In this document: piece by piece, positions 4,404 to 52,362 of the stretch
Numbering within the stretch: the first letter of the stretch is position 1
How the letters are laid out: every line of letters starts with the position of its first letter
NCBI GenBank assembly: GCA_026989655.1
Contig: JALSIX010000027.1
Location: 1-64,000 of the forward strand
DNA from: Caldilineaceae bacterium
GTDB taxonomy: Bacteria; Chloroflexota; Anaerolineae; Caldilineales; Caldilineaceae
DNA length: 64,000 nt
Direction of reading: 5' to 3'
Made by a program: the position numbers and the translations under genes
The notes under the pieces: generated by a model
What the model saw: only the letters and a program-made list of their open reading frames with translations
Told to the model about the DNA's origin: nothing
Databases searched by the model: none

Positions 4404-4542
4404 AGGGACGTTCTCCTCAAAGGAAGCGACACGGACATCCGACATGCCCAGGGCAGAGGGCCATCCATTGGGCCATCGGGTCCGGTGGAACCGGTGGAAA
4501 TGGGGGAAATCGCCCATATGGCGGACCTCCGCGTCCGGACAT

Positions 4543-5345: not shown

Positions 5346-5422
<77 letters not shown>

Positions 5423-5434
5423 CCCGCGCCCTCC

Positions 5435-5463
5435 ATTGTAGCCAAAAGTGGCCCTGGGGTCAA
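5435..5463 (-). promoter_or_regulatory. sigma70-type promoter of the tRNA operon
   Basis: On the minus strand, TTGACC (5458-5463) and TACAAT (5435-5440) are separated by 17 bp. Initiation would fall near 5428, just before tRNA-Pro. Confidence 0.85.
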
Positions 5464-5491
5464 AACTCCCGGAGGCCTGCCGGGGTTCCAC

Positions 5492-7207
5492 TCAGGGCAC
5501 CCAGGTGAGACGATGCTCCATCCAGTTGGGCAGCTCTCCCCGCACGGGCGCCAGGAGCTGAGGAGCCCCCCCCGTGGCCGGCACCACCCAGAGGCCCCAC
5601 CGGCCGTCCCGGTTGCTGAGAAAGGCCACCCGCTGTCCGTCGGGGCTCACGGCAGGAAGGCCGTCGATCCCCGGGTTCTGGGTCAACCGGGTCACCTGAC
5701 CGGTGTCCACCGATACCCGGTAGATCTCCCAGTCGTCGTCCCGCTCCGCGCTCATGAAGTAGACGAAGCGCCCATCCGGGGACCAGGCCGGACGGGCATC
5801 GCCCGGCACCTGGGTGAGAGGCGCGCGGCCGGTGCCTCGGCTGTCCATGAGCCAGAGCCCACAGCGGTTGCCCCGCTCGTCGCACCCCCGGAAGGCGATC
5901 CGGTCGTCCACCGGGTTCCACGCGGGATCCGTGCCGAACCCCAGGCTGGCGCCGTTGTCCTGGCCATCGGCCCAGGCCACGTAGATCCGCCAGCGCCGGT
6001 CCCCTTCCCGGTTGCTGGCGAAGACCAGGCGATTCCCCTCGGGATTCCAACTGGGCAGCATGTCCTCCGCGAAGACGGTGAAGCGGAGCCGCAGCCCACT
6101 GGCCGGATCGAAGCCCGAGAGGCCCCGCTGGTCCCCGCGCATGTTCCGAAAGACCAGGCGCTGGCCGTCGGGCCGCAGGTGGGGGTTCATGCCGTCCTCC
6201 ACCAGGACCACCGGACGGACGCTGGCCGTCACCGGCTGGGCCAGGATCCGATAGCGGCCGTCCACGGGATCCCGCACGTCGTAGAGGATCCGGCCGGTGC
6301 CCATGCCCATGGGAGCCTCGCCCGTGGGGGCGTCGGCGGTCGGGGCCGCCGCGGTCCCGCTCTGCTGGCAGAGAGTGTTCAGCTCCGCGTGGCGGGACGC
6401 GAGCTCCGGGGTGCTCTGGACGGCCATCGCGGCCGCGTACTGGGCAGCGGCCTCACACCATCGCCCCTGACGGTCCAGGCTTTCGCCGTACTCCACGTGG
6501 GCCTGTTGCAGCCGCCGGCGCACATCCCGATAGCCCGGATCCTGGGCGTACAGCTCTTCCAGCAGCGCGATGGCCTTGGGCCAGTCCGCGTACCAATAGG
6601 TCAGCGCGTCCAGGTAGGTCGCGGCCATGTCCCGGACGGTTCGGATCTCGGCCAGGTCGGGATCCAGGGCCAGCGCCCTGTCCAGGTACTGGACGGCTTC
6701 CTCCAGGCGGCCCGCGTTGTGCCGCTCCATTCCCAGGGTCAGGTAGGCGGTGAGAAGCATCTCCCGTACCTGCTCGGCCTGGAACGCCGGATCGGCCAAC
6801 TGGATCTCCCGCAGCCGCTGGATGGCCTCCGCCCAACGTCCTCCTTGCACCAGGGCCTGGGCTTCCTGCCAGAGCTCGTCCACAGGGCTGGTAGGGGTGG
6901 GCGCGGGCGGGATGGGGGAAGGTGTGGGAGGGCTGGCGGCCATGGCCAGGGCCTGGTCCAACCCCTGGATGGCCGCGGGGTTTCCCGGTTCCAGGAGGAG
7001 CACCTGGCGGTATTCCTCGATGGCAGCCCGACCGTTGCCCTGGGCCAGATAGTCCTCGGCCCGTTGGAGATGCATGGCGATCTGCTGGCGGGCCTGGGCC
7101 CTGGCCTGGCGGAGCCCGGCCTGGTACCCTCGGATTGCGCCGAAGGCCACGATCAGAACAGCCAACAGGGTAGCGAGCCCCACCAGGATCCAGAAGAACC
7201 GGGGCAT
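5492..7207 (-). CDS. membrane-anchored TPR / TolB-like (PD40) propeller protein
   Basis: A 571-residue protein. The ATG at 7207 has GGAGA eight bases upstream and puts a membrane segment (FFWILVGLATLLAVLIVAFG) right at the N terminus; two earlier in-frame ATGs lack good ribosome sites. A helical part with TPR-like units (RAEDYLAQGNGRAAIEEYRQVL and later repeats) covers roughly residues 45-270. The C-terminal 250 residues repeat PD40 blades such as PSWNPEGNRLVFASNREG and PAWSPDGRFVYFMS, as in TolB. It probably faces outward and scaffolds protein contacts. No enzymatic motif is visible. It is transcribed away from the chemoreceptor gene. Confidence 0.88.
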   Translation of the reverse strand: MPRFFWILVGLATLLAVLIVAFGAIRGYQAGLRQARAQARQQIAMHLQRAEDYLAQGNGRAAIEEYRQVLLLEPGNPAAIQGLDQALAMAASPPTPSPIPPAPTPTSPVDELWQEAQALVQGGRWAEAIQRLREIQLADPAFQAEQVREMLLTAYLTLGMERHNAGRLEEAVQYLDRALALDPDLAEIRTVRDMAATYLDALTYWYADWPKAIALLEELYAQDPGYRDVRRRLQQAHVEYGESLDRQGRWCEAAAQYAAAMAVQSTPELASRHAELNTLCQQSGTAAAPTADAPTGEAPMGMGTGRILYDVRDPVDGRYRILAQPVTASVRPVVLVEDGMNPHLRPDGQRLVFRNMRGDQRGLSGFDPASGLRLRFTVFAEDMLPSWNPEGNRLVFASNREGDRRWRIYVAWADGQDNGASLGFGTDPAWNPVDDRIAFRGCDERGNRCGLWLMDSRGTGRAPLTQVPGDARPAWSPDGRFVYFMSAERDDDWEIYRVSVDTGQVTRLTQNPGIDGLPAVSPDGQRVAFLSNRDGRWGLWVVPATGGAPQLLAPVRGELPNWMEHRLTWVP

Positions 7208-37015: not shown

Positions 37016-38386
37016 CTACTGCTTCGTGGTCAGCGGCAGGAAGAGCCGGTAGCCCTCCCCTTCCACCTGACAGCCCTGGCCGTTCAGGGCCACATCCACT
37101 CGATGGGGGGTACGGTCGTTCTGCCAGGCAAAGCCGGCCTCCTGCACACAGGAGCCCACCCGCAGGCGCAGGATCTCCCCAGCCTGGTAGCCGGGGATGC
37201 CGGCCTCCCCGTCCCGGCCGTAGACGGCCATGAGACCGAAGCGTCCATCCTGGTCCACCGCCACACAGCCCACCACCTGCCCGCTGCTGTCCAGGGCCTC
37301 CACCAGGGTGCCGGCCGGAGCAGGGACGCCGTTCTGGCGCACATCCCCGTAGAGCAGGGTCATGGTGGGCGTGGGTGCCACCGCGGGACAGCCGGCCCGC
37401 GGCCGTTGCCGTGGCCGCTCCCGGCTGCCGACCTCGGGAAAGGTCAGGGTGGCCGAACCCGTCATGTGGATCAGAACGGCCTCACCGGGATACAGCGTGG
37501 TCAAGGTCTGGTAGGAGGCCCCCAGTTGGACATCGTAGGCGCCCCGCAGGCCGATGACCCGATCGTACTTGCCCTGGATGCTGGCCAGGGCCGCGACCAG
37601 GTCCACCGCCCCTTTGCCGCAGTAGGACACCAGGTTCCAGCCAGGCCCCAGGGCCATGGGGCTCGTGGGCCTGCGGGCCGGCCCCAGGGTGACCAGCCGC
37701 ACCGGGGCCCCGGCGGTCAGGCGCAGCCAGGCCCCTGTCCCCCCTTGCAGTGCATCCACGGGGCGGTTGTCCGCGTCCCATACCGCGTTGTAGCGCCCCT
37801 GGATGGTCTGCAGCGCGCTTTCCAGGGGTTGATCCCCCAACTCCGGACAGACGCCCATCAGGTTCCATCCCTGGGCGACCTCCTGGACCTGGATCCCCGC
37901 CACCTGGCGCTCCACCGGGATGGAGGTCGCGTCCGGCGCGCCCAGGACCACCCGGCTGGGCGTCAGGTAGCCGATGCCCTCGGCCTGGACGACCATCTCC
38001 GCGGTGGCCAGGACACCGGTACCGCTCGCGCCGGGCTGGTCGCCGGTGGTGTAGGCACCCACGGCCAGGGTCACCCCATTGAACTTCACCTCTGGCCCCA
38101 GGGCGTGGACCTGGCGGCCACTGCTGTCCAGGAAGGAGGAGCCCAGGCTGCCGCTCTGGATGCGCAGGATCGAGCCGGCCGCGTCCAGGTCCAGGTCGAA
38201 GGCGCCCAGGTTGGAGATCTCCTTCACCTGCAGGGCCACCTGGATGGTGTTGCCGTCTCCATCGGTGAGCACCGGGGCCACAGTGGGGGTCCCCTCCGCG
38301 GCCAGGGCGGGGGTGCTCGGCGCCAGCAGCCCCGCGAGAAGGAGGGCCATCCATGTCACATATCGAAGGAAGGGATGTCGGTTCAT
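37016..38386 (-). CDS. secreted protein with cohesin-like domain and two GWNLV repeats
   Basis: A 456-residue exported protein. The ATG at 38386 gives a signal peptide ending near LAPSTPALAAEG; an earlier ATG at 38461 would place 25 extra residues in front. The first mature domain (about residues 35-150; VALQVKEISNLGAFDLDLDA) resembles cohesin-type protein-binding domains. Two related units follow: QGWNLMGVCPELGDQPLESAL and PGWNLVSYCGKGAVDLVAAL, each ending in IQGRYNAVWD or IQGKYDRVIG. The C-terminal 100 residues resemble a carboxypeptidase-regulatory/Ig-like domain (APAGTLVEALDSSGQVVG). It could dock to dockerin-like partners; the giant protein immediately upstream has a dockerin-like segment. 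Confidence 0.85.
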   Translation of the reverse strand: MNRHPFLRYVTWMALLLAGLLAPSTPALAAEGTPTVAPVLTDGDGNTIQVALQVKEISNLGAFDLDLDAAGSILRIQSGSLGSSFLDSSGRQVHALGPEVKFNGVTLAVGAYTTGDQPGASGTGVLATAEMVVQAEGIGYLTPSRVVLGAPDATSIPVERQVAGIQVQEVAQGWNLMGVCPELGDQPLESALQTIQGRYNAVWDADNRPVDALQGGTGAWLRLTAGAPVRLVTLGPARRPTSPMALGPGWNLVSYCGKGAVDLVAALASIQGKYDRVIGLRGAYDVQLGASYQTLTTLYPGEAVLIHMTGSATLTFPEVGSRERPRQRPRAGCPAVAPTPTMTLLYGDVRQNGVPAPAGTLVEALDSSGQVVGCVAVDQDGRFGLMAVYGRDGEAGIPGYQAGEILRLRVGSCVQEAGFAWQNDRTPHRVDVALNGQGCQVEGEGYRLFLPLTTKQ

Positions 38387-38488
38387 GGTCGCCTCGCGTT
38401 GGTGATGCTGGGCAATGCGTCCCAGGTACCTCAGGAAGCCTGGGAAGACGCTATGGTCCATCCTGTTCCCACGTCACGGCTCCGGCAC

Positions 38489-38529
38489 CCCGGGAGGCGG
38501 AGCCGCGAGCGGGCCTTCCGCCTCCCGGG
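38489..38529 (-). terminator. strong hairpin after the giant protein gene
   Basis: CCCGGGAGGCGGA (38489-38501) and its exact reverse complement (38517-38529) make a 13-bp stem with a 15-base loop, nine bases past the stop at 38538. No U-run follows on the minus strand. It may end the transcript inefficiently or protect its 3' end before the cohesin-like gene. Confidence 0.6.
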
Positions 38530-38537
38530 CCACGCAT

Positions 38538-41500
38538 CTACTCCGCATCCGCGTCGAACTTGGCCGCCCACTGTTCCTGGCCGCTGGGCGGTTGGTCGAT
38601 GTAGGCCAGTTGGGCAAGCACACCGGCCTGCCAGCAGCCTCCGTCGTTCCACCAGCGCTTGTCCCAGCCCCGCCAGGTCTCCGGCTCGCAGGCGAAGAGG
38701 CCGATGGCCACCCAGAGCTGGCCGGTGAAGGCGGTGCAGTCCTCCTCCGTCTTGCCGCACTGCTGGCCGCCGGTGGCCTTGGCGTTGGGCTGCACGTTCT
38801 CGATGGTCAGGGTCAGCTCGCCCTTGGCGTGGATCAGGCAGAGGGCCGTGCCGGTGACGTTGCCCCGCAGGAAGCCACCCCAGATGGGGCGTCCGCCCTC
38901 CACAGGGGCGAAGTACCAGCCCTGGAGCTCGCCGCCTGCAGAGGCCTTGAGCAGACAGCCACTGTTGTAGATGGGGACGTCGCCGTAGAGGTAGAGGAAG
39001 GCGCCGCCGAAGACCTTCCCTGCAGGCGGCCCGGCGGACGGGCCCTGGTTCAGGCCCACCTTCTTCAACAGGGTGTCGAAGCCCGCTTCCCGCAGGACCT
39101 GGCTCCTGGGATCGATGAGGCCGAAGAGGAGTGCGCCGCCCAGGGTCAGGCCATCCATCGTTCCTTCCCCTTTGATGCCCAGGTAGGCCAGGGGCTGGAA
39201 GTTCACCCGGCCGGCGCCGAACACAGCACCCGTGTTCTGGAGAACGACGCCTTCCACCTCCATGCGGGCGATGATGATGCCGCCTTCCAGGCGCTCGTAC
39301 CCGGACTTGGTCCCTATGATGAGGTAGATGTCGGCCTTGATGTCCCTGTCACCGGTGATGGAGGAGCTCACGTTCTTGCCCACCACGATGATCTCCCCAT
39401 CCCGGGTGATCTCCAGGGTGAGCCAGTCCGCGTGGAACAGGGGGCGTCGGTCCGTGGGGGAGGCCTTGATGTCCACCAGGGTGCCGAACTTGATGTTCAC
39501 CAGGCGGAAGTCGCCGCCCGCGATCTCGAAGATCACCTGCCCCATGCCTGTGGCCAGGGTGGCGTTGGCCACCTTCAGGATCTGGCCCGACTGGATGCCG
39601 GTGATGCCGTAGGCCTCCTTGCCCTTCAGGGCTCGGATCTTGGGCTCGATGATCTGGAAGGTCTGGGTGTAGGCGCCGGTCTTCCAGTCGCCCCACACGG
39701 ACTTGGCCAGGTCCAGGGGGTCATCCTGGTCCCCAGGCTTGATCCCGTAGCCGAACTTCTCCATCCAGGCCTTCGCGTCCTTCTCCACATCGTCCCACTT
39801 CTGGTAGGGCGCGATGCCCACGTTGTTCTTGCCCGGCCGGTTCATGGCCAGGGCCCGGATGCCGGCCTGGCTGGCCGCGTAGCCCGCGAAGAGGCCGAAG
39901 TCCATCTGGAAGCCCTGGGTGTCGGTGAAGTTCACCGTCACCACCACCCCCAGATCGGTCTTCAGGACCTCGCCGCCGGGCAGCAGGGAGACGTCTGGCT
40001 TGATGCCCACCAGCGCGCCGCCGTAGTCGTTGACCATCAGCTTGAAGGGCAGGTACTCGTCCAGGTATTTGTTGGCGATGGGATAGGCCCAGCGCAGGTT
40101 GGGTTTGCTGGCCGGGGCCTGGCTCTTCCGGTTCCCCTGGACATTGGTCACCAGGGGCCACTTGCCCTTGGGCGTGTCGTCCTTGCTCTGCATGGTGAAG
40201 GAGCCCGTGGCCCCGATCTCGCCGAAGTGGACCACCGCGCCGTTGCCGTCCACCAGGATGAAGCCACAGCCCTGGCCCTTGCCACCGTTGCGGTCCGCGC
40301 ACCGCTTCAGGGACTGGCCAGTGACCTTCCCCTGGCTGTCCAGCAGGTTGGGCGGCAGCTCGCCCATCAGCTCGCTGGGCTGGACGCCGGCCGGGTCGGG
40401 CAGGCTGGACTCGTCCATCATGGCGCTGTAGAAGCGGCTGAGTTTCACGTCGGTCAGGGCGTAGGGCACGCCGCTCACCCGGAAGTAGTCGGGTAGGTCC
40501 TGGTTGCCGTTGTTCCCCTGAGGATAGAGGCGGACGTCCCCGTAGTCGCCGTTGGGGAACCAGTCGTGGGCCATGGGGATCTCCGCATCCACGCCCACCT
40601 GGCTGCTCTGGGTAGTGGTCTTGCCCAGGCCCGCGACCACGCCCGTGCCCCGCAGCACCAGGATGGCGCCGGGCAGCACCTGGTTGCCGTCGTTCTTGCC
40701 CGTGTTCTGCTGGTATTTGGCCTGGTAGTCCACCACGTGATCGTTGCGGCCGCTGCCCTTGCCGCCGATCTGGACGAAGCGGGCCGTGCGCGGGGTCTGG
40801 CTGAAGTTCCAGAACTTGTGGACGTAGGGCTTCACCTGCTCCACCTGGCCCTCCACGGGGCAGCCCCGCTCGTCGAAGCCGTCGGGCCCGAAGCGCAGGG
40901 GGATCACCACGTCGCTGGGGTAGGGCAGGCGCAGGTCCAGCCGAGCCTGGCCATCCACCACCGCGTTGTCCACGAAGAGGAGGTCGTACTCCTTGATGGT
41001 GACCAGATAGCCCCACTTGTTGCGGATCTCCCCGAAGCTCTGGGCGTTGATGCGGAAGTTGCCGCTCACCCCGCCCCGGCGCACGTAGAGATCCAGGTCC
41101 ACGTCCTTGAACATGGCCGGGTCGAAGCAGTCACAAGCAGCCCAGGCTCCCAGGCCGATGATGTTCAGCCCGGGGTCCAGCTTGGCGCTGGGCGCGTAGA
41201 CGGTGTCCAGCTTGCGCCAGGCGTTCTCCGCGGGGGCGGGATCGCTGGGGGACACCCGGTTCCAGTTGATGGCCGCGCCGTTCTCCGGGAAGCTGGCCGC
41301 GGCCCCGTAGAGCTCCATGGTGATCCCGGGCCCGCTGGTGTAGACCGTGTAGGCCCCGGTCCAGGTGATCTCCGTGGGGTTCACGCTCACCGATTCCCGC
41401 AGCAGGCCCCCGTCCTGGAGGGTGAACCGACCGCTGGGCGGGGTGATGCTGAGCTGGATGAGGCCACCCAGAGGCGTGCGCGTCCCCACCCGCAGGAGCT

Positions 41501-44500
41501 TGTCCTTCTGGGAGATGAAGCTGATGTCCGTGCCCTGGCTGTAGTAGTCCAGGCGAGCAGTGGCGTTGTTCAGGGCGCCGCTGACGATCTGGCTGGCGTC
41601 GATGGTCACCTGCGCGCCGCCCTGGGCCGTGATCTCCACGCCCCCGGGCAGGCTGGTGACGTAGGTGAAGGGATTGGGGTTGTTGAAGCTCCCCTGGAGC
41701 CCCTGGTTGTTCACCAGCACATTGGTCCCGGTGTAGCCCGTGTTGGTCGTGCCCCCAGGTCGGAGGAAGCCCAGGTTGTTGTCCGGCCAGGGCAGGCCGC
41801 CACCGGCTGGCGGCGCGTAGCCCAGGCGGTCCTGGACCGTCACCGTCCCCATGAGGTTCAGGGCCGTGGGGTGCAGCTCCCAGGTGTTGGTGTGCAGGGA
41901 CCAGGGCAGGTTCTCGTCCACCAGGTAGAGACCGTCCACGGTGGTGTCCACCACCAGGGGCTGGAAGAGGTAGTCGGGGAAGACGTTCTCCACCACGGCC
42001 CGCACCTGGTTGCTCCGCTCCACCGCGGTGGGGTCCACCACCTTCACGTTGTCTGGGAACTGGAAGCGCATCTGGCCCCGGGCCACGCCGGGCTGGAACT
42101 CCATCTTCTCCACCCAGGTGACCAGCCGGCCGGCGCTCACGCCCTTGTTGATGTCCACCACGATGCGGCCGCCAACGAAGTCGCCTGTGTCCGGGTCCAC
42201 GTAGATGTCGTAGAAGTTGGCCGGGAACGGGTCCCCGTCCCCATCGATGAGCTTGCCCTCGCCGAAGAGGGGCGCCTCCGGACCCAGGTCCAGGCCGTTG
42301 CAGTTACCATTGTAGTCGTAGAAGTTGTCCACGACGAGAGTCCAGCCGTTGGCCAGGAGGATGGTGTCTCCGGGCACGTTCCACCAGCCTTCGCCGCCGG
42401 GGCCGTAGTAGGAGGGCGCACGGATCTCGTAGCCGGTGCTGCAGGGCAGGGTCGGCCCGGGGGAGAGAGGGGTGTTCAACTCGATGACCGCGCCCGCGGT
42501 CAGCGGCTGCAGCCGGATGGCGCCCCAGTAGCCCAGGACCTCCAGGGAGCTGGGGCTGAAGGCCAGCACCGTGTAGTCGTAGGCGTCGGTGATGTCCAGA
42601 TCCGCGGTGTCGGTGATGACCAGGGCCGACTGCGGGTTGGGGCCGCTCGGCGGGTAGAAGGTGCGGTTGCTGCTCACGTCCACCACCGGGGTGACCTGGA
42701 TCCAGTTGCCCGCAGTGGTCTTGCGGAAGAGGGCCACGTAGGGGGTGGGCAGGTTGTTGTCCGCCGGCGCGGGGATGAGGACCCGTGCGGTGGGCTGGGA
42801 GGCCCCCAGAACCCACTCCACGGCCAGGGGCTGGCCCAGGCGGGCCATGTGTCGGTTCGTGTCCAGGAAGTTGTTCACGTTGCGCACCCAGCGCACGGTG
42901 GCCGGGCTCTGGCCCTGGTCGTTGCGCTCCGTGGCCTCCACCTTCACCGTCTCGCCGGGCTCACCGCGCACGGTCACCTTGCCGCTGGGGGGCACGGTCT
43001 GCACGTCCGTGCGCAGGCCGTTCTGGTCCGGGCGCAGGGTGGTCACCTTGCGGTCGGCCACACCCGTGGGCGGCAGGGTGTAGGTCAGAGGCACCTGGTA
43101 GGTCAGGGTGTCCGGATCCCACTGGGCCGGGCCCTTGTCCACCTCCGGTGCGTCCGGCCGGTTCGGTCCGCACAGTCGAGCCTTGAAGGTGGCCGGATCG
43201 CTCACGTTGCCGTAGCCGTCCAGGGCCTCCACCTTGTAGTAGACCCAGGTGTCCACCGGGGGCTGATAGGCCTCGGTGAAGGTGGCCTGGCCGTTCTCCA
43301 CCTTGATGCGCTGGATGAGCTGCACCCCCGGCGCGTTCAGGTTCGTGATGGGGTCAAAGGAGCGGTAGACGATGAGCTGACGGACCTGGGAGGCCAGCCC
43401 GGTGAAGTTCACGCTCAGGCCGCCCGGCACACACTGGTTCACGTCCGCCACACTGGGCGCGGGCGGCTTCTGCCGGGGGTAGAGGCCACCCTTGGCCGGC
43501 GCGCTGGGCGCGGACCAGTTCCCGGCCGCGTCCCGCACCTGGACCCGGAACCAGTAGAGGCCCTGCTTGGGGGGCGTGTACTGGTAGGTCATGATGACCG
43601 TGTTCGCCTGGGTCAGGCCGTTGGGGGTGATGTCCACCCAGGCGGTGATGGGCAGGCTGGCCAGCACACTGGGCTCGGTCAGGGAGACCGGGTCCGGGCT
43701 GCGCAGGACGTAGAACTTCAGCGGGGTGCTCTGGTCCGTGGCCGTGTAGGTCCAGGTCAGGGTAAGCTTGGTGTGTTGCTCGTCCGCCTGGACCTGGAGA
43801 TCGGCCACCGGGGCCGGCGGCCGCAGATCCCGCACCCGGATGTCCGCGGGCTGGCTACAGGGTCCCTCGTTGCCCAACAGGTCCACCGGGCAGACCTTGT
43901 ACTGCCAGACCGTGAAGACCTGGTCGGGTCGGACCCGGGTGGAGATGTCGAAGACGTCCACCAGCCGGTCCGCGTAGAAGAACTGCCCCTGGGTGACGGG
44001 GTCCACGGACTTGCCGGGCTGGATCAGGCGGTAGCCCGCGTTGGGGTTGCCGGCCACCTTCAGCGGATTGACGATCTGCCACTGGTTGCCCGTGGCCGGG
44101 CCCTTGCGGTAGATCTTGTAGCCGGCCACGTTGGGGTTCACCGGCAGGGTCATCACCGGCCCGACGCCGCTGAACTGGAAGGGGTCCTGGAGCTGGTTGC
44201 TCTTCTGGGTGGTATCCGAGGGGATGTCCCACAGGAGGAAGGCCGTGCCGTGGGCCTGACGGTAGACCTGGGCCCCGTCCCAGTCGTAGCGTTCTGTGCC
44301 CGTGATGGGGCGGGTGGTGGGCGAGATGCCCAGATCGCTGGGCCCCTGGTAGACGGTGCCCTCCCGCAGGTTGGTGGGCGCGGCCAGGGCAGCCAGGGAG
44401 CTGATGGCCACCGGGCCGTAGATGGGCGCGTTGGGATCGCCCTTCACCTGCACGTAGTAGGTCACCATCTCGGTGGCCGGGACATTGGCGTCCACGAAGC

Positions 44501-46550
44501 CCAGCCCCACCGCCTGGGCGATCTCCGGGTAGGCATCGGCCAGCAGGGAAACCCGGGCCCTGTTCTGGGGGTTCTTGAGGAAGGCCAGCAGGGCCCCGTC
44601 GTCGGCCAGGTTCAGGTCGGCCAGCTCCACGTTGCGCACCAGGTCCCGGATGTCTGGGAGCACCTGGGCCTGGAAAGCGGCCAGATCCGGCGCGGCCTTG
44701 GCCTCGCCGACCACGGTGAAGCTGCCCGTATCGCCCGTCTTCCGCAGGATCTGGAAGACGGTGTTGACGTCGCTCTTGCCCGGCACCCAGCGCCAGTGGA
44801 GGTAGATGCGCCGGCCCCGGGCCCCGTTGTCCTGGGCCCAGGCCAGATCCAGGCCATCGCACCGGGCCCGCCAACCCTGGGCCAAAGTGTTCAGGTCCTC
44901 CAGCTCCACCACGCCGTCGCGGTCCAGGTCCTGCTCCGGGAAGAGAGGCGACTGGCCCAGACGGCCTGCAGCGGCCTGTATGTCCAGCACATCCAGCACG
45001 CCATTGGTGCCCGGCGCGTCCAGGCTGCGGATGCGGTCCGCGGTGCAGGGGGAGACCGGCGGTGTGCCGGGCAGGGGATCGTCGTCCCGGATGATCACCC
45101 GAGCCGTGGCCGGTTCGCCCAGCCGGGCGCCCTGGGGCCCAAAGAGGCTCAGGTTGAAGGCCTCATCCTCGTTCTCCGCATCGCTGTCGTCCAGGATGGT
45201 CACCTGGATGGACTTGCGGCTCTCTCCGGGGTTGAAGGTCAGGGTGGTGGAGATGGGGGTGAAGTCCTGGTTGGCCTTGGCCGAACCCTCGGTGGTGGCC
45301 ACCTGGACCGTCACCGGGCCTCCACCGCTGGGCCGATCCACCAGCTCCACGTCCAGGCTCACGGCGCCCACGCTCTCCCCCACCCGGACGGTGTCCGTGA
45401 GGATCCGCAGGACGGGCCTGTAGAGGGTGGCGTTCGCATGGATCACGGCGATGCCGGACTCCACCTGGCTGTTGCCGAGCACCCCATTGGCCGGCGACAG
45501 CAGCAGGTAGCCTGCAGGAGGCTGGAAGCGGATCTGGTAGGTGCCGGGCGCGAGGGTGGGGAAGCCATAGCGCCCCTCGACATCGGTCTGGGTGGTGTCC
45601 AGGACCGTGCTGCCGCTGCTGTCCAGGAGCTGGACCGTGACGGAGACGACACTGGGTTCGTCAGGATCCCAGGTGTTGTCCTTGTTCAGGTCCTCCCACA
45701 CGAGCCCGGAGATGGAGCCGGGCTCGTAGAGGCCCGCGTCCACAGCCACCAGGTTCTGGCCCGAAGCGAGGGTGAAGGGGGCCGTCAGACCGGAGGCCGG
45801 CTCCACATCGCTGTCCTTGGCGTCGTTCCCCCCTTGGTCCTTGGGGCTGAACTGCTCCCCAGCCGGGGGGACGACCCGCACCTGGTAGGTGTCGGGCCGA
45901 AGGTTGCTGAAGTAGTAGTTTCCGTCCTCGACGCTGTCCGTGCGGGTCTCCGCGATGAAGCCCCGGGTGGTGGAGAAGAGGCGCACCACCACCTCGCCCA
46001 GGCCCGGTTCGCCGCTCTCCTGGATGCCGTTGCCGTTCTCGTCCCGCCAGACCCGGCCGCTGACCCCGGCCGGCAGGGCCACGGCCACACTCACCTGGGC
46101 GTCCGCCTGCACGGTCTGCTCGTCCACCGTATCGCCGGTGACCTGCACCCACTGCTGGAAATCACCCGAGGGGGCCGTGACCGTGCAGGTATAGCTCTTG
46201 ACCGCCTCCGGGGCCAGTTCGTTCAAGGTCCGGTTGCAGTCCGGGCTGGGTGTGTTGGTGGCCCCGACCTGCTGCCAACTGGCGACGGTCAGGTTCAGGG
46301 CCTTGCTCGAGCCGGTGTTGCGGACCGTGATGGTGAAGGTCACGGGTTGGCCGGACAACACCGGGATCCCCCCTGTCTGGGCCACGATGTCCACCAGAAT
46401 CCCGGAATACGGGGCCTGGGCCCGGGCCGGGGAGCCACCGACGCCGGCCAGGATCCCCGCCAGGGCCAACAGAAGCCCAACGGCCCAGGCGCTGAGGGGA
46501 AGCCATCGGTAGGGTCGAACGCGGTGCACAGGAAACGGCATGGGGGACAT
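38538..46550 (-). CDS. giant multidomain surface protein (2,670 residues)
   Basis: The largest gene of the window. The ATG at 46550 is preceded by AAGGAG and gives a signal peptide ending near SPARAQA. In order: a CARDB/DUF11-like domain (VTFTITVRNTGSSKA), two SdrD-type B domains (SGRVWRDENGNGIQESGEP; SGLVWEDLNKDNTWDPDEP), a Calx-beta domain (KANQDFTPISTTLTFNPGES), a dockerin-like EF-hand pair (GVLDVLDIQAAAGRL; DLDRDGVVELEDLNTLA), several fibronectin-III-like domains (about residues 900-1150), then more than 1,300 beta-rich residues without a recognised family. The C terminus has scattered cysteines (CGKTEEDC, CEPETWRGW). No sortase motif or membrane anchor is visible at the end, so attachment to the envelope is unclear. 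A SARP-like box lies upstream of the small gene before it. Confidence 0.92.
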   Translation of the reverse strand: MSPMPFPVHRVRPYRWLPLSAWAVGLLLALAGILAGVGGSPARAQAPYSGILVDIVAQTGGIPVLSGQPVTFTITVRNTGSSKALNLTVASWQQVGATNTPSPDCNRTLNELAPEAVKSYTCTVTAPSGDFQQWVQVTGDTVDEQTVQADAQVSVAVALPAGVSGRVWRDENGNGIQESGEPGLGEVVVRLFSTTRGFIAETRTDSVEDGNYYFSNLRPDTYQVRVVPPAGEQFSPKDQGGNDAKDSDVEPASGLTAPFTLASGQNLVAVDAGLYEPGSISGLVWEDLNKDNTWDPDEPSVVSVTVQLLDSSGSTVLDTTQTDVEGRYGFPTLAPGTYQIRFQPPAGYLLLSPANGVLGNSQVESGIAVIHANATLYRPVLRILTDTVRVGESVGAVSLDVELVDRPSGGGPVTVQVATTEGSAKANQDFTPISTTLTFNPGESRKSIQVTILDDSDAENEDEAFNLSLFGPQGARLGEPATARVIIRDDDPLPGTPPVSPCTADRIRSLDAPGTNGVLDVLDIQAAAGRLGQSPLFPEQDLDRDGVVELEDLNTLAQGWRARCDGLDLAWAQDNGARGRRIYLHWRWVPGKSDVNTVFQILRKTGDTGSFTVVGEAKAAPDLAAFQAQVLPDIRDLVRNVELADLNLADDGALLAFLKNPQNRARVSLLADAYPEIAQAVGLGFVDANVPATEMVTYYVQVKGDPNAPIYGPVAISSLAALAAPTNLREGTVYQGPSDLGISPTTRPITGTERYDWDGAQVYRQAHGTAFLLWDIPSDTTQKSNQLQDPFQFSGVGPVMTLPVNPNVAGYKIYRKGPATGNQWQIVNPLKVAGNPNAGYRLIQPGKSVDPVTQGQFFYADRLVDVFDISTRVRPDQVFTVWQYKVCPVDLLGNEGPCSQPADIRVRDLRPPAPVADLQVQADEQHTKLTLTWTYTATDQSTPLKFYVLRSPDPVSLTEPSVLASLPITAWVDITPNGLTQANTVIMTYQYTPPKQGLYWFRVQVRDAAGNWSAPSAPAKGGLYPRQKPPAPSVADVNQCVPGGLSVNFTGLASQVRQLIVYRSFDPITNLNAPGVQLIQRIKVENGQATFTEAYQPPVDTWVYYKVEALDGYGNVSDPATFKARLCGPNRPDAPEVDKGPAQWDPDTLTYQVPLTYTLPPTGVADRKVTTLRPDQNGLRTDVQTVPPSGKVTVRGEPGETVKVEATERNDQGQSPATVRWVRNVNNFLDTNRHMARLGQPLAVEWVLGASQPTARVLIPAPADNNLPTPYVALFRKTTAGNWIQVTPVVDVSSNRTFYPPSGPNPQSALVITDTADLDITDAYDYTVLAFSPSSLEVLGYWGAIRLQPLTAGAVIELNTPLSPGPTLPCSTGYEIRAPSYYGPGGEGWWNVPGDTILLANGWTLVVDNFYDYNGNCNGLDLGPEAPLFGEGKLIDGDGDPFPANFYDIYVDPDTGDFVGGRIVVDINKGVSAGRLVTWVEKMEFQPGVARGQMRFQFPDNVKVVDPTAVERSNQVRAVVENVFPDYLFQPLVVDTTVDGLYLVDENLPWSLHTNTWELHPTALNLMGTVTVQDRLGYAPPAGGGLPWPDNNLGFLRPGGTTNTGYTGTNVLVNNQGLQGSFNNPNPFTYVTSLPGGVEITAQGGAQVTIDASQIVSGALNNATARLDYYSQGTDISFISQKDKLLRVGTRTPLGGLIQLSITPPSGRFTLQDGGLLRESVSVNPTEITWTGAYTVYTSGPGITMELYGAAASFPENGAAINWNRVSPSDPAPAENAWRKLDTVYAPSAKLDPGLNIIGLGAWAACDCFDPAMFKDVDLDLYVRRGGVSGNFRINAQSFGEIRNKWGYLVTIKEYDLLFVDNAVVDGQARLDLRLPYPSDVVIPLRFGPDGFDERGCPVEGQVEQVKPYVHKFWNFSQTPRTARFVQIGGKGSGRNDHVVDYQAKYQQNTGKNDGNQVLPGAILVLRGTGVVAGLGKTTTQSSQVGVDAEIPMAHDWFPNGDYGDVRLYPQGNNGNQDLPDYFRVSGVPYALTDVKLSRFYSAMMDESSLPDPAGVQPSELMGELPPNLLDSQGKVTGQSLKRCADRNGGKGQGCGFILVDGNGAVVHFGEIGATGSFTMQSKDDTPKGKWPLVTNVQGNRKSQAPASKPNLRWAYPIANKYLDEYLPFKLMVNDYGGALVGIKPDVSLLPGGEVLKTDLGVVVTVNFTDTQGFQMDFGLFAGYAASQAGIRALAMNRPGKNNVGIAPYQKWDDVEKDAKAWMEKFGYGIKPGDQDDPLDLAKSVWGDWKTGAYTQTFQIIEPKIRALKGKEAYGITGIQSGQILKVANATLATGMGQVIFEIAGGDFRLVNIKFGTLVDIKASPTDRRPLFHADWLTLEITRDGEIIVVGKNVSSSITGDRDIKADIYLIIGTKSGYERLEGGIIIARMEVEGVVLQNTGAVFGAGRVNFQPLAYLGIKGEGTMDGLTLGGALLFGLIDPRSQVLREAGFDTLLKKVGLNQGPSAGPPAGKVFGGAFLYLYGDVPIYNSGCLLKASAGGELQGWYFAPVEGGRPIWGGFLRGNVTGTALCLIHAKGELTLTIENVQPNAKATGGQQCGKTEEDCTAFTGQLWVAIGLFACEPETWRGWDKRWWNDGGCWQAGVLAQLAYIDQPPSGQEQWAAKFDADAE

Positions 46551-46662: not shown

Positions 46663-46869
46663 TCACTGAAGGCCGTCGGGCGCCTGGGGTCCCAGGCCAT
46701 ACCGTTGCAGATATCGCCTCAACAGGGCCACCAGGCTGTCGAAGTCCTCGAAGTAGTCGACGGTCTGGGTGGTCACCTCCGTCACCTGGCCTCTCCACCC
46801 GGAGGAGCTGCCAGGTTCCTGCCAGATACGCACAATGAGCGATCCCCGCCCGGTGGAGTCTGGAACCAT
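46663..46869 (-). CDS. small conserved-looking hypothetical protein (68 aa)
   Basis: A 68-residue soluble protein. The ATG at 46869 follows GGGAGG at a slightly short distance. The sequence is protein-like and not low-complexity: a beta strand GSLIVRIWQEPG, a Trp-Arg-Gly strand (GWRGQVTEVTTQTVDYF) and an amphipathic C-terminal helix (FDSLVALLRRYLQRYG). I cannot name a family. The frame is open upstream to 46932, but that part overlaps the SARP-like promoter's -10. Its position between a SARP-like promoter and the giant surface protein suggests an accessory or regulatory role for that operon. Confidence 0.72.
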   Translation of the reverse strand: MVPDSTGRGSLIVRIWQEPGSSSGWRGQVTEVTTQTVDYFEDFDSLVALLRRYLQRYGLGPQAPDGLQ

Positions 46870-46930: not shown

Positions 46931-46962
46931 ATGATGGAGAAGGCTGTCTCAGACTTGTCTCA
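46931..46962 (-). promoter_or_regulatory. SARP-type operator/promoter, copy A
   Basis: On the minus strand two TGAGACA heptamers (46956-46962 and 46945-46951) are separated by AGTC, an 11-bp period. Eight bases further lies CATCAT (46931-46936), a 4-of-6 match to TATAAT. SARP activators bind paired heptamers of TCGAGNN type 4 bp apart, with the downstream one about 8 bp from the -10. Shifted by one base the repeats read TTGAGAC and CTGAGAC. It is 62 bp upstream of the 68-aa gene. A 29-bp core (46941-46969) is identical in copy B. Confidence 0.7.
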
Positions 46963-46969
46963 ACCGCCT

Positions 46970-47405
46970 TCCATCCACCGGGCACTCGGCCGCATGGCCC
47001 ATTCCCCGCTTCCGACAGGTGAACCCGGCCATGGGGCCACGGGCACGCTGACACCACAACGCCCTGGTCCGTTGCCTGCCCGGCAGCCGGCCGAGATGAC
47101 GGCGCCGACGCCGACGAAGGGACAAGGAAGATCCGCGTCCCCGGGCCCAGGGGGGCGTCTACCAGGTGGACGCGGCCGAGGGGGGGGCAGTGTGCCGGGA
47201 CAGCCGGCATGGAAGGGACGAAACGGCTGTGGAGGCGGCAACAGGGCGGCCGCCCCCACAGCCAGGCGAGTCCAAGGGAGGAGGATGGATGGGCGGCGGA
47301 AATCCACGGCCATCCTCCCCCGGGTGGACCTCCGTCTCGCACCGCCAGGACCGGGTAGCCGACGTCCACGGCAGGCGGCCCCACGGAATGCACCTACTCC
47401 TTCAC
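46970..47405. other. 436-bp region without a recognised gene
   Basis: It lies between the lipoprotein gene's stop and operator copy A. No open frame has a ribosome site or protein-like composition, and I saw no promoter, strong hairpin or repeat besides the directly repeated GGAGTAGGTG just past the lipoprotein stop. It may hold binding sites upstream of the SARP-type promoter. Confidence 0.6.
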
Positions 47406-48224
47406 CTACTCCTGCACCGTGAACGAGAGCCGCTGCACCTCCTCATCGTTGATGAGCAGAACGACCTCGTGGTCGCCGGCCGGCAGGCCATCCTGTTTCT
47501 CCAAGGTGAAGTAGACACTCACGGCCTCCAGGTCCTCCTGGGCGGTGAGGGAGCGGGTGGCATCCTCGGCGAGCTGTCCGTTCAGATACCAGTTGACTTC
47601 AAGGCGCGAGTAGAGGCCCAGATCGACCACGCCCACCAGGTAGATGACCGTGTCCGACGTGCTGAAGGTCGTCGTGGGCTCCACCGGCACGTAGGCGTTG
47701 GGCGTCTCCTCCATCCCTTTGGCCAGGGTGACCTCGATCACGCGGGAAGGAATGGCCTCTGGGGGCGGCGCCACGGCGAAGGTGTAGCTGCCGGCCGGCG
47801 AGCCGTTCACGAAGACCTCCACCCGGTAGTTGGGGCTCACGGGCAGGGGTTCTCTGGGCTTCAGCGTGAAGTGCACCCGGGTGTTCTCACCGATGGAGAA
47901 GATGACCCCCTCGTTGACGTCGGCCAGGTCTACCGTGGCCGAGGCGATCTCCTGATCGCGGACGTAGAAACGGGCCATCACCTCCCCTTCCCGGGGCCGT
48001 CCCTCGATGGTGAGCAGCAGGTTCACCGTCTGCTCCGGCGTGAAGGAGGTGGTGGGGTTGATGGGCTCCATCTCCTCGCCCACATCTTCGGCAAAGGTGG
48101 CGTCGAGGATGGTGAGGCCAGAACCCTCCTGCGCCCCTGCGCCCTCTCCATCGCCGCCACAGGCGGCCACAACCAGAGCCATCGCCAGTGCCAGCCCCAG
48201 AAGCATCCATCTATGTCTCATCAT
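47406..48224 (-). CDS. lipoprotein with two tandem beta-domains
   Basis: A 272-residue exported protein. The ATG at 48224 has GGAGGG eight bases upstream; an earlier ATG at 48245 lacks one. The signal peptide ends in LVVAAC, Cys22 being the lipid anchor, followed by a Gly/Glu linker. Two homologous domains of about 110 residues follow: the first runs from ILDATFAEDV through INPTTSFTPEQTVNLLLTIEG to SYTFAV, the second from VIEVTLAKGM through VEPTTTFSTSDTVIYLVGVVD to LSFTVQE. This is an internal duplication of an Ig-like fold. No enzymatic motif is visible. Its promoter carries operator copy B, and it sits directly downstream of the SARP-type regulator gene. Confidence 0.88.
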   Translation of the reverse strand: MMRHRWMLLGLALAMALVVAACGGDGEGAGAQEGSGLTILDATFAEDVGEEMEPINPTTSFTPEQTVNLLLTIEGRPREGEVMARFYVRDQEIASATVDLADVNEGVIFSIGENTRVHFTLKPREPLPVSPNYRVEVFVNGSPAGSYTFAVAPPPEAIPSRVIEVTLAKGMEETPNAYVPVEPTTTFSTSDTVIYLVGVVDLGLYSRLEVNWYLNGQLAEDATRSLTAQEDLEAVSVYFTLEKQDGLPAGDHEVVLLINDEEVQRLSFTVQE

Positions 48225-48301
48225 GGGAGCATCCCTCCGGTCCATCGGGTGTTGTCGGTGTGATCACAGGAAGAGATCCTCGACTCCCCCTCTCCTCAAC
48301 C

Positions 48302-48333
48302 ATGATCGCGGAGGCTGTCTCAGACTTGTCTCA
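48302..48333 (-). promoter_or_regulatory. SARP-type operator/promoter, copy B
   Basis: On the minus strand TGAGACA occurs at 48327-48333 and 48316-48322 with a 4-bp spacer, followed after 8 bp by GATCAT (48302-48307) as -10. The 29-bp core 48312-48340 is identical to copy A, whereas flanks differ. It precedes the lipoprotein start at 48224 by 78 bp. The remaining bases up to 48585 show no coding frame. Confidence 0.7.
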
Positions 48334-48585
48334 ACCGCCTCCCGGAGAACGGACACCCATGGAGACGCCCCCCGCCCACGGCCCATCAGCGGGGACCGCG
48401 ACGGGAAAGTCCGGCGGAGAACCTGCGCAAAGGGGCGAAAGGAGGGCAAAAGGGGGCCATGTGAGAGCAACGGAGAACCCTGGGATGGCGCGAACCCTCC
48501 CACAGGGTGAGAGAGGTGGCACCCGGGGAAGGGAACAGGCTGCGGAAGGGGTGCCGGCCCTCCTCGGGGGAAGGAGCCGGGCTGT

Positions 48586-51500
48586 TCAGGAGCGTTCGGA
48601 GATCTTCAGCGCCCGCAGATCACGGCGGACAGTCCGGGGACTGACACCCAGGACCTTGGCCAGGGCCTGGACCGTGGGGCGGGCGCCCTGCTCCTTGGCC
48701 TCGGCCAGCAGTCGGCGGAGGCGGTGGCGCCGCCGGGGTGGCCCTTCGGGCAGGGCCATGTCCTCCGGTGCGTGGACGGTCCATTCCACCGTGTGGTGGC
48801 CCGTTCCGTCCCGCCCCGGCAAGGTGACGGCCTGCCGCTTCGGACAATAGGGGTTCCAGGCAGCCAGAATGGCCCGGTGTTCGAAGACCCGTTCCCGGCT
48901 CATGGCACGATGCTCCGGGGTGAGGGTGGCCATCATGCGCTCCAGGCGTTCCACCGAGCGGGCCAGGGCCTCTCGGGCCTCCCGCTCGCGGCCGGCGACC
49001 TCCAGAGCTATCGAGCGGTAGAACCACATCATGTAGTCCATCTCCTCCAGGTCGTCCAGCGCGTCCATGGCCTCCTGGGTGAGGGCCAGGGCCTCTGAGA
49101 CGGCCCCCTGCTGGGCTCGGATCCACCCCTTCATGGCGAGCATCCAGGGGCGCAGGGCCGCCATGCCGTGTTCACGACACAGGGCCAGGCCGGCATCCAG
49201 CTCCTGGACACCCGCCTCCAGGTCCCCCTGCTCTATGTGCCAGAGGGCGCAGGTCCGGTGGAACTGGGCCAGGATGAAGAACTCCTCGACCTGGGCCAGG
49301 ATCGCCTTGGCCGTCTCCATATGCGAGCGGGCGTCCTCCCAGCGCTCCTCCGTGATCTCGGCCGCGGAGAGAATGGCCAACGCGTGCCCCAGGGTGATCC
49401 GATCGTCCGACCGGCGGGCATAGTCCAACACCCAGCCCAGCAGGGATCGGGCCCGAGCCGTGTCGCCCACAAAGGCCACCAGGTTGGAGGCCAGGTTCAC
49501 CCGGGTGATGGCCTCCGGCCGATCCATGCCCAGGGTGGGACAGAGGGCCAGCACCTCCTCGTAAGCCTGGATACAGCGGCCCACCTCGCCGATCTTGCTG
49601 AAGACGTTGGCCAGGTTCACCCGAGCCCGGACCTCGCCGTACAGGTAGCCGATCTCCTGGCTCAACGCCACCCCGCGGCGGTGGAAGTCCGCGGCCCGAT
49701 CGTAGAGCCCCTCCTCCATGGAGACGATGCCCAGCACGTTCAGGACGTCTACCTGGCGATGTTTGAAACCCAGCCCCCCGAACTGTTCCAGGGCCTGGGA
49801 GGCCACCTCCCGGGCCTCGGTGTACCGCTTCACGCCTCCCAGGGCGCTGGCCAGGAAGAGGAGGGCCTCGGCCCGATGGCGTCTCTCCCGGGGCACCAGG
49901 GCCACAGCCTGCTCCAGGAGCTCCACGGCCCGGGTGGATGCCCCCTGATATTCCTCCACCTGCCCCAGGAGGGTCAAGGCCTTCACCTGGAGATCCACCT
50001 GTTCCAGAGAACGGGCCAGGGAGAGCGCCTGCGCGGCCGCCCGACGGGCCTCCGGGTAATGGCTCCGGTGGAGGTGAAAGGCCGCTGTTCGGCACAGGAC
50101 CTCGCAGGCCTGGAGGGGGTCCTGGGTGGTCCGTTCGCCCAGCTCCTCCAACACCCGGGCCTGGGCCTCCAGATCGCCCAGGACGGCCAGGGTCTGCTCC
50201 CATTCCAAGAGGAGCGCCGTCCGCCGCCCGGGATCGTCCTGCGACAGTCGGTCCAGGGCCTGCAAGGCCTGTTGGAAATGGTGGCGGGCCCGACGATAGT
50301 CGGAGCGGGCCAGGGCCTCCTGGCCGGCCCGGTGATGGTGCTCCAGGGCCTGGGGCCAGTCCTGGGCCAGGGTGAAGTGGTGGGCCAGCACGGCACTGGA
50401 GGCCTGGTTCCGATGGGACAGGACCTGGCCGGCCCGGTGGTGGAGAGCCCGGGCCCGGTGCATGGGCATGTTCTGGTAGATGACCTCTCGGATCAGGTCG
50501 TGGTGGAAACGGAGATGGGTCTCCGTCTCCACCAGAAGGCCCTGGGCCACCAGATGGCGGAGGGCCTGGAAGACCTGGGCCGGGGACATGGAGACCATGC
50601 TCTGGAGGATCGGGAGGGTGAACTCGAGCCCCAGGACCGAGGCCGGTGCCAACAGGGCCTGGCTCTCCGGGGACAGGCGCCGGAGCCGCTGCTCCAGGAG
50701 CTCTTCCACCCGTTCCGGCAAGATCGCCTCCTCGCCCGCCGGGGCTTCGAGCTCCCAGGGAGTGCTCCATTCCCCCGGCGCGCGCCGCCGGAGAAGGCCC
50801 TCTTGGTACAGGGCCCGGAGGCTCTCCAACACGAAGAAGGGATTGCCGCCGGTCTTGGTGTGGATCCGGGCCACGAACCGGGCCGGTGTCTGTCCCATGC
50901 CCAGGGCCAGGCGGACCAGCTCCCCCGCGGCCAGTCGATCGAGAGGACGGAGGACCAGACGACGCTGCACCCCCGCGCGATCGATGGCCTGGAAGGCCTC
51001 CCAGCGTTCCGGGACCGCCCGGACCGCCTCGCCCCGGTAGGCCGCGACCACCAGGACCGGCTCGGAGCGCAGCTCCCGGGCCAGGAGGCGCAACATCTCC
51101 AGGGTCTCCAGGTCGGCCCGATGGAGGTCGTCCAACAGGAGGACGGCCGGGCCCAGCCGACCGATGGCCCGGAGGAGATGGAGGAGGGCCTCCATGGACC
51201 GCCGCCGCGCGGCGTCTGGGGCCAAGGTCGGAGGCTGGGGAAGAGGGTCCAGGGTCCTGGCGATCTCCGGAAAGAAGCGGGACAGGACGGCCAGCCAGAG
51301 GGGATCCAGGACCAGGGCCAACTGCTGGATGTGGAGAGGGGTCAGGAAGGGCGTCAGGGCCCGGACCAGGACGGCCATGGCCTGCTCCTCCACCTCCACG
51401 GCCACGGCCCGGTAGATCTGGGCCCCCCGCCAGGCCGCGTCCTCGGCCAGGGTGTCCAACAGCTTGCTCTTGCCGATCCCGGCCTCCCCTTCCACCAGGA

Positions 51501-52362
51501 CCACGCCGCCGCTCCCGCCGATGGCCCACTCCACCGCCTCCACCAGTTGAGCCCGCTCCCGCTCCCGGCCCACCAGGGGAAGCTGTTCGGGGCTCTCCAG
51601 GAAGGGCGCGAACTCCGTTCGGGAGGCGATGCGCATCTGGGCCTGGATGCGTTCGGCCAGTTGGAGGGTCGCGGGGGTCGGCGAGGTGCCCAGCTCCTCC
51701 TGGAGCAGACGTTCCAGCTCCTGGAACTGGGCCAAGGCCATGTGGGGCTGGCCCAGGTGGACGTAGGCCTGCATGACCAGGCGGTGCCCGCTCTCCACCA
51801 GGGGATCGGCTCGGGTGAGGCGCAGCGCATGCTCCAGGGCCTGCTCCCATCGGCCAGCCTGGCTCTCGGCCTCGGCCAGCGCGGTGAGGGCAGCCAGGTA
51901 GCGCTGGCGGAGCTGCTCCCGAAGCGGGAGGATCCACTCGTCGTCCAGGTCGATCAACAGATCCCCGCGATAGCGGGCCACGGCCCGGGCCAGGGCCTCC
52001 AGATCCGAGCTCTGGGCGGTCTCGTCCAGAAAGCAGCGGACGTCCACGGTGAAGGAGGCCCGGCGATCCAGGCGGATCTCCGGGCCGCTGAGCACCAGGG
52101 GATGGCCCAGGTGCTCATCCAGGTGGCGTCGGATGCGCCACAGCTCCTGGGAAAGGCGCCGGCGGGCCGTCTGTTCCGGCAGCTCGGACCAGAAGATGCC
52201 CGCCAGTTTCTCGCGACGATGGCCCTGGTCCGCGTGGTAGGCCAGGTAGGCAAAGAGGGTTCGGGCCTTCTCGGTGGGGAAGGGGGGGAGATCGCCGGCC
52301 TCGGCCCGAACACGCAGGTGTCCGAAGAGCTCAATGGTCAGGGAAGGCACGGGTGCAGACAT
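48586..52362 (-). CDS. SARP/AfsR-like transcriptional regulator: winged helix, BTAD, AAA ATPase, TPR, extra C-terminal HTH
   Basis: A 1,258-residue regulator. The N-terminal OmpR-type winged helix (about residues 8-95; LTIELFGHLRVRAEAG, RRRLSQELWRIRRHL) and the bacterial transcriptional activation domain (about 100-250) define the SARP family. An ATPase of STAND/AAA type follows with Walker A EGEAGIGKSK near residue 295 and Walker B AVLLLDDLHRADLE near 405. Residues about 650-1150 are helical TPR-like repeats. The last 45 residues (VQALAKVLGVSPRTVRRDLRALK) form a second helix-turn-helix, unusual for this family. Such proteins integrate ligand or protein signals and activate promoters with direct heptamer repeats. 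Two such boxes lie within 5.5 kb on the same strand. The ATG at 52362 has no clear ribosome site. Confidence 0.93.
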   Translation of the reverse strand: MSAPVPSLTIELFGHLRVRAEAGDLPPFPTEKARTLFAYLAYHADQGHRREKLAGIFWSELPEQTARRRLSQELWRIRRHLDEHLGHPLVLSGPEIRLDRRASFTVDVRCFLDETAQSSDLEALARAVARYRGDLLIDLDDEWILPLREQLRQRYLAALTALAEAESQAGRWEQALEHALRLTRADPLVESGHRLVMQAYVHLGQPHMALAQFQELERLLQEELGTSPTPATLQLAERIQAQMRIASRTEFAPFLESPEQLPLVGRERERAQLVEAVEWAIGGSGGVVLVEGEAGIGKSKLLDTLAEDAAWRGAQIYRAVAVEVEEQAMAVLVRALTPFLTPLHIQQLALVLDPLWLAVLSRFFPEIARTLDPLPQPPTLAPDAARRRSMEALLHLLRAIGRLGPAVLLLDDLHRADLETLEMLRLLARELRSEPVLVVAAYRGEAVRAVPERWEAFQAIDRAGVQRRLVLRPLDRLAAGELVRLALGMGQTPARFVARIHTKTGGNPFFVLESLRALYQEGLLRRRAPGEWSTPWELEAPAGEEAILPERVEELLEQRLRRLSPESQALLAPASVLGLEFTLPILQSMVSMSPAQVFQALRHLVAQGLLVETETHLRFHHDLIREVIYQNMPMHRARALHHRAGQVLSHRNQASSAVLAHHFTLAQDWPQALEHHHRAGQEALARSDYRRARHHFQQALQALDRLSQDDPGRRTALLLEWEQTLAVLGDLEAQARVLEELGERTTQDPLQACEVLCRTAAFHLHRSHYPEARRAAAQALSLARSLEQVDLQVKALTLLGQVEEYQGASTRAVELLEQAVALVPRERRHRAEALLFLASALGGVKRYTEAREVASQALEQFGGLGFKHRQVDVLNVLGIVSMEEGLYDRAADFHRRGVALSQEIGYLYGEVRARVNLANVFSKIGEVGRCIQAYEEVLALCPTLGMDRPEAITRVNLASNLVAFVGDTARARSLLGWVLDYARRSDDRITLGHALAILSAAEITEERWEDARSHMETAKAILAQVEEFFILAQFHRTCALWHIEQGDLEAGVQELDAGLALCREHGMAALRPWMLAMKGWIRAQQGAVSEALALTQEAMDALDDLEEMDYMMWFYRSIALEVAGREREAREALARSVERLERMMATLTPEHRAMSRERVFEHRAILAAWNPYCPKRQAVTLPGRDGTGHHTVEWTVHAPEDMALPEGPPRRRHRLRRLLAEAKEQGARPTVQALAKVLGVSPRTVRRDLRALKISERS

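Follow-up and report, generated by a model that had tools for sequence, protein, structure and literature searches.

To our knowledge, nearly all described SARP activators come from Actinobacteria, where they switch on antibiotic production. EmbR of Mycobacterium tuberculosis controls cell-envelope genes, and direct repeats with an 11-bp period are likewise bound by regulators of the PhoB/OmpR type. AfsR binds its promoter as two adjacent SARP protomers, which occupy two 11-bp repeats centered at -29.5; the -10 and -35 elements of SARP promoters are poor (PMC10936776). In the afsR-afs box-afsS arrangement, the target gene activated by this large SARP encodes a protein of 63 aa (PMC6988585). 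Binding by PimR requires a minimum of two heptamers (PMC5930380). Here we analyzed the first 64,000 nucleotides of a contig (JALSIX010000027.1) from a Caldilineaceae bacterium of the Chloroflexota, hereafter the window, in which two identical 29-bp sequences lie near a SARP-type regulator gene. Our results make it very probable that the adjacent SARP-NOD-TPR regulator uses both copies as its operators, that it activates a regulon of exported proteins, and that the locus is one case of a class-wide set of modules. The evidence is comparative throughout, and the genome set consisted largely of draft assemblies.

The regulator

The gene at 48586-52362 had been called SARP-type in a preliminary sequence-only reading of the window, and the Pfam BTAD match, phmmer hits to EmbR and AfsR, and a predicted structure with the AfsR/EmbR fold bear this out. 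The features are as follows.

48586-52362, minus strand: SARP-NOD-TPR regulator of 1258 aa (Pfam BTAD 3.5e-24, AAA_16 2.1e-21, TPR; orthologues in relatives)
51622-52362, minus strand: SARP domain (winged helix plus BTA), residues 1-247 (AlphaFold2 model, pLDDT 96; structural alignment)
52108-52176, minus strand: predicted recognition helix, residues 63-85 (EQTARRRLSQELWRIRRHL...; AlphaFold2 model, alignment to AfsR alpha3)
48604-48723, minus strand: C-terminal HTH, residues 1214-1253 (Pfam HTH_11/HTH_DeoR)

As in described large SARPs, an N-terminal OmpR-type winged helix and a BTA domain are followed by a NOD/STAND ATPase and a TPR part (Pfam AAA_16, TPR). The phmmer values were 4.7e-8 for EmbR and 1.3e-4 for AfsR, and in VIA-align comparisons the SARP-domain model matched AfsR 8k60 with Z 20.8 over 235 residues (second AfsR complex, 19.8) and EmbR 2ff4 with Z 19.6 (second EmbR match, 19.5); the next unrelated fold reached Z 12.2. 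Residues S71, Q72, and R76 align with R87, T88, and R92 of AfsR. The protein is a large SARP by architecture and not AfsR itself, since it scored 54.8 bits against the AfsR equivalog NF053617 (NCBIfam), whose cutoff is 1430 bits. About 20 related regulator matches are present in the same genome.

The HTH_11/DeoR-like HTH at the C terminus (48604-48723) is without counterpart in AfsR. Alignments of the relatives in G033, G005, G018, and G038 reach it and those of other relatives stop earlier; it may thus give the regulator a further element for binding DNA or protein. We rejected it as a required reader of TGAGACA: the relatives in G002, G014, and G020, which have the same sites, match the regulator only to about residue 1167.

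The two 29-bp copies

Comparison within the window confirmed that the stretches at 46941-46969 and 48312-48340 are identical and that their flanks have diverged (82% identity over 57 nt). Read on the minus strand, each contains TGAGACA-AGTC-TGAGACA, followed after 8 bp by a hexamer.

48312-48340, minus strand: putative SARP operator A, 29-bp core, with heptamers at 48333-48327 and 48322-48316
48302-48307, minus strand: -10-like hexamer GATCAT of operator A, 8 bp from the 3' heptamer
46941-46969, minus strand: putative SARP operator B, 29-bp core, with heptamers at 46962-46956 and 46951-46945
46931-46936, minus strand: -10-like hexamer CATCAT of operator B, 8 bp from the 3' heptamer

The sequence-only reading had recognized in this the heptamer arrangement of SARP operators, and both copies agree with it: SARP sites are direct repeats with an 11- or 22-bp period whose 3' repeat lies about 8 bp from the -10 element, and the window sites have an 11-bp period and 8 bp to the hexamer. 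The hexamers themselves are weak, each sharing 4 of the 6 bases of TATAAT. Both copies precede minus-strand genes, as had been proposed: operator B stands before the gene of a 68-aa protein (46869-46663) and that of a giant protein, and operator A before a lipoprotein gene whose likely start, judged from the sequence, is 48224. The site is rare. The whole 4.09-Mb, 150-contig genome holds two exact copies, both in the window, and shuffled windows gave 0.17 matches with up to two mismatches allowed.

Downstream genes and further sites in the genome

The genes that follow the two putative operators are these.

47406-48224, minus strand: lipoprotein gene, putative target of operator A (open reading frame; lipoprotein-type N terminus)
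46663-46869, minus strand: 68-aa small protein (FIxRxW...WR family), first gene past operator B (family HMM; model)
38538-46550, minus strand: giant exported protein (DUF11, SdrD_B, and Calx-beta by Pfam; orthologue in G008)
37016-38461, minus strand: exported cohesin-like protein, next gene of the putative operon (Pfam Cohesin, E 4e-4, just under the curated cutoff)

The lipoprotein is 45% identical (E 5e-66) to a lipoprotein in a regulator-linked operon of G038, a genome from another family. Synteny of the small, giant, and cohesin-like genes is preserved in G008, where the giant-protein orthologue (76% identity) directly follows a TGAGACA box of its own and the cohesin-like orthologue is 70% identical. 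In the giant protein of this 37016-46550 region, we also noticed by eye a dockerin-like EF-hand stretch; together with the borderline cohesin next door it could possibly form a surface assembly pair under the same operator.

Scanning the genome revealed sites with one mismatch at C50:32534 and C84:15631, and the two-mismatch sites include C86:3267. On the operator strand, the C50 site reads TGAGACA-accc-TGAGATA and continues at the same period with TGGGTCA, a degenerate third copy of the repeat; the C84 site reads TGAGACA-tctc-TGAGATA; and the C86 site, with a degenerate second heptamer, reads TGAGACA-gttc-TGAGAAG-8 bp-TACAAT. The genes after them encode a 715-aa, a 111-aa, and a BNR/sortilin-type protein, respectively, all with signal-peptide or lipoprotein-like starts. 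In G020 (E 6e-58), G380 (2e-38), and G014 (1e-36), the small gene is followed by one for an exported protein homologous to the C50 protein, and the C84 protein matches a 94-aa protein of the G038 operon (49% over 70 aa). Matches with three mismatches (55, versus 43 in the reversed control) hardly exceeded background and were left uninterpreted. These further sites precede genes of exported proteins, and for two of them a homologue stands in a regulator-linked operon of another species. The local regulon of envelope proteins suggested by the sequence-only reading is supported as to its exported-protein targets, but the word local was too narrow: unlinked contigs are reached, and the arrangement appears to be class-wide.

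Linkage of TGAGACA sites to the regulator in other genomes

Among 41 genomes, the exact heptamer pair occurred only in that of the window (G000, two sites) and in G002 (one), G008 (two), G014 (one), and G020 (one); the reversed-pattern control gave no match in the same set. These 4 of the 40 relatives all hold close relatives of the window regulator, and in three of them the site is linked to it, lying downstream on the same strand at 35 bp in G002, about 1.1 kb in G020, and about 5.5 kb in G014. In G008, sites and regulator are on different contigs, and the two sites stand at the start of theirs, before the small-gene orthologue and directly before the giant-protein orthologue. Within the 41 genomes, the exact pair is thus not placed at random, as the sequence-only reading had anticipated for relatives, but is confined to genomes with relatives of the regulator and mostly linked to them.

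A class-wide scan of 396 genomes yielded 14 exact sites, versus 3 matches of the reversed control. Newly found among the linked cases was G380, in which a single site lies between a divergent regulator and small gene. In G038, the regulator is followed at 66 bp by the variant TGAGATA-N4-TGAGATA-9 bp-TATAAT. Linked TGAGACA sites have the spacers agtc, accc, tctc, gttc, agtt, ctcc, cttc, ttcc, atcc, and attc, which mostly follow NNYC, whereas most of the probable chance matches do not. Exact matches in G273, G316, G280, G072, and G073:C121 were set aside as chance, being without an NNYC spacer and without a regulator in their 3-kb loci, which is consistent with the 3 matches of the reversed control. 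In L094 (G215:C81, about 4443-4482), four tandem TGAGACA heptamers at 11, 11, and 10 bp precede the gene of a WYL-type regulator, on a short contig in which no SARP regulator was seen.

A small-protein family at the putative regulated promoters

The 68-aa protein belongs to a family with an FIxRxW motif and a WR pair, and the members tested reached no Pfam or NCBIfam family at cutoff. By family HMM it is present in 31 of the 41 genomes. It is absent from each of the five genomes of the same family in which the regulator had no match (G007, G015, G019, G021, and G024) and also from five other genomes with few such matches, so that family and regulator co-occur. Among the regulator matches listed, at least 39 of 106 small-gene copies lie within 6 kb of a regulator, with about 2 expected; these comprise 26 downstream on the same strand, 12 divergent, and 1 upstream. 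Members also adjoin such regulators in Meiothermus, Eremiobacterota, and Thermoflexus records. The Meiothermus and Eremiobacterota loci (L227, about 5406-5564; L206; L239), in which the family stands beside SARP-type regulators, indicate that the module is not confined to the Chloroflexota.

The 68-aa protein is modeled as beta-beta-beta-alpha (pLDDT 82). Fold searches with this model returned nothing significant: the best Z was 4.4, including 2yzt and the comparison with HicB-like or partial RNase H folds, and Foldseek E values were 0.09 or worse. The gene after the small gene has a signal-peptide-like start in 41 of 55 cases (75%), compared with 14.6% at random positions under the same crude procedure. 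The small gene constantly comes first and accompanies the regulator more than any one kind of target, so its product is probably a regulatory partner and not a structural protein.

Putative operators with differing words across the class

We asked whether any exact 7-mer is repeated at a fixed distance upstream of the small genes, after removal of duplicates. Such a repeat at an 11-bp period was found upstream of 37 of 98 small genes, compared with a mean of 2.6 and a maximum of 8 in 200 dinucleotide shuffles and with 2 to 11 of 98 at other periods; the peak is at 11, with none at 22. Without the TGAGACA/TGAGATA regions, 30 of 89 remained. In random windows the frequency was 3.3%, and upstream of other open reading frames it was 5.0%. 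The words include AGAAACG, TGAAACG, TAGAACG, TATCACG, TGTCACG, CTTTACG, CGATACG, CGGCACG, TTGGACG, and TCCGACA, and the majority end in ACG or ACA. A TANNNT hexamer lies 8 to 10 bp past the second repeat in 16 of 30 cases in the forward direction versus 1 of 30 in the reverse, with a modal distance of 9 bp and a peak at 9-10 bp, and these hexamers are better than those of the window. About 60% of the small genes have no exact box within 450 bp, under a detection that requires an exact 7-mer; as the loci were chosen by homology, recent operators may be favored.

In a tree of the N-terminal domains, regulators with the same word are neighbors for TGAAACG (98/86) and AGAAACG (100/95), the putative readers of TCCGACA fall in one five-member clade, and those of TGAGACA form two groups in a 15-member clade that is not firmly supported (84/94). 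In the window's own genome, a paralogous SARP-NOD-TPR regulator at L098 (G000:C85, 4451, minus strand) has a box TCCGACA-gtca-TCCGACA-9 bp-TACACT after its small gene. By itself this private box is not significant against the repeat background; its support came solely from a TCCGACA box beside a related regulator in G004. The arrangement appears to be class-wide, with different words for different paralogues.

The words might be chosen by the recognition helix. In a first set of regulators, residue 71 was Arg with ACG words and Ser, Thr, or Asn with ACA or ATA words, and this was recorded as a prediction before 20 new regions were inspected. All 10 new ACG boxes went with Arg at residue 71, a weak result given that Arg is the common residue, and at the single new clear ACA box (L304) the prediction failed, the residue again being Arg. 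Because Arg is common and the lineages are few, a code in which residue 71 (aligned to AfsR R87) specifies G at base 7 when Arg and A when Ser, Thr, or Asn is offered as a suggestion.

We judge it somewhat more probable than not that Chloroflexota contain dozens of afsR-afsS-like modules per group. Each would pair a SARP-NOD-TPR regulator with an undescribed partner of 70 to 100 aa, and would drive an exported protein from a promoter whose heptamer is specific to the regulator, mostly of the form nnnnACG or nnnnACA, and recurs at 11 bp. No description of such operators or of the small-protein family was found in the open-licence papers searched.

Alternative readings of the sites

The repeats could instead belong to a response regulator of the PhoB/OmpR family, which likewise reads direct repeats of 11 bp near -35; this family has the same winged-helix class and 7+4 geometry, and PhoP and AfsR compete for overlapping boxes upstream of Streptomyces afsS (PMC6988585). 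We consider this quite improbable, because the sites travel with the SARP regulator gene, the words change between loci while the neighbor stays a SARP regulator, and regulators sharing TGAAACG or AGAAACG cluster in the tree. Similarly small odds attach to a reader that is a paralogous SARP-NOD-TPR regulator in place of the adjacent gene's product. Such a paralogue might recognize the word too, given about 20 related matches genome-wide, and one is encoded on C86 about 10 kb from the C86 site; however, linkage elsewhere is to the closest relatives of the window regulator, and the paralogues examined carry other words, such as TCCGACA at C85. Least probable is that recent duplication or a mobile repeat produced the copies and that they regulate nothing: the identity runs into spacer and flanks, so recent copying within the lineage is likely, yet in other species the heptamers persist around different spacers, in every case between genes and in the right orientation, and there are only two exact copies per genome.

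Proposed mechanism and significance

We therefore return to the adjacent SARP-NOD-TPR regulator as the reader of both copies. Activation by it is suggested by the geometry that the sites share with the AfsR complex and by their poor hexamers. Two SARP domains would sit side by side, one on each heptamer and thus one per helical turn, and the pair would cover the stretch between -35 and -10 in promoters whose core elements are poor. It would bring in RNA polymerase in the way established for AfsR. Activation would be gated, in response to a signal, by the NOD ATPase together with the TPR part. The output of the regulon would be the small, giant, and cohesin-like proteins, the lipoprotein, and the unlinked exported proteins on C50, C84, and C86, and each regulator in the class-wide set would have its own heptamer.

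If this is correct, the SARP operator architecture extends to a further phylum, where it comes with a small, conserved partner gene, has exported proteins as its output, and occurs in tens of independent copies per group. If true, so many natural pairs of regulator and word would make a SARP recognition code readable, with residue 71 as the first candidate. Two questions have become testable: how a SARP domain selects its word, and whether large-SARP signaling generally includes a small protein encoded at the regulated promoter, as it may with AfsS. The arrangement also provides target predictions for hundreds of uncharacterized regulators, and for surface proteins that could not otherwise be annotated, in a largely uncultured phylum.

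Comparison with known systems

The PhoB/PhoP box fits the window sites in geometry, but their linkage is to SARP genes. EmbR of M. tuberculosis has a similar SARP-type domain (Z 19.6) and differs in having an FHA domain and no NOD/TPR part. The three-heptamer operator of PimR, a SARP-LAL regulator (PMC5930380), has the same 4-nt spacers, and the C50 site has a degenerate third repeat at the same period, whereas regulator architecture, heptamer, and target are different. Closest is AfsR-afs box-afsS of Streptomyces coelicolor (PMC10936776, PMC6988585), with a large SARP carrying NOD and TPR parts, two 11-bp direct repeats between the -35 and a poor -10, and a promoter that drives a small protein (63 aa in afsS). 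The system described here differs in its Chloroflexota host, its heptamer, its exported-protein output, and the extra C-terminal HTH of the window regulator; its small protein, as far as known, belongs to a family other than that of AfsS. Our best reading is that the locus represents a Chloroflexota counterpart of Streptomyces afsR-afs box-afsS that controls the cell envelope.
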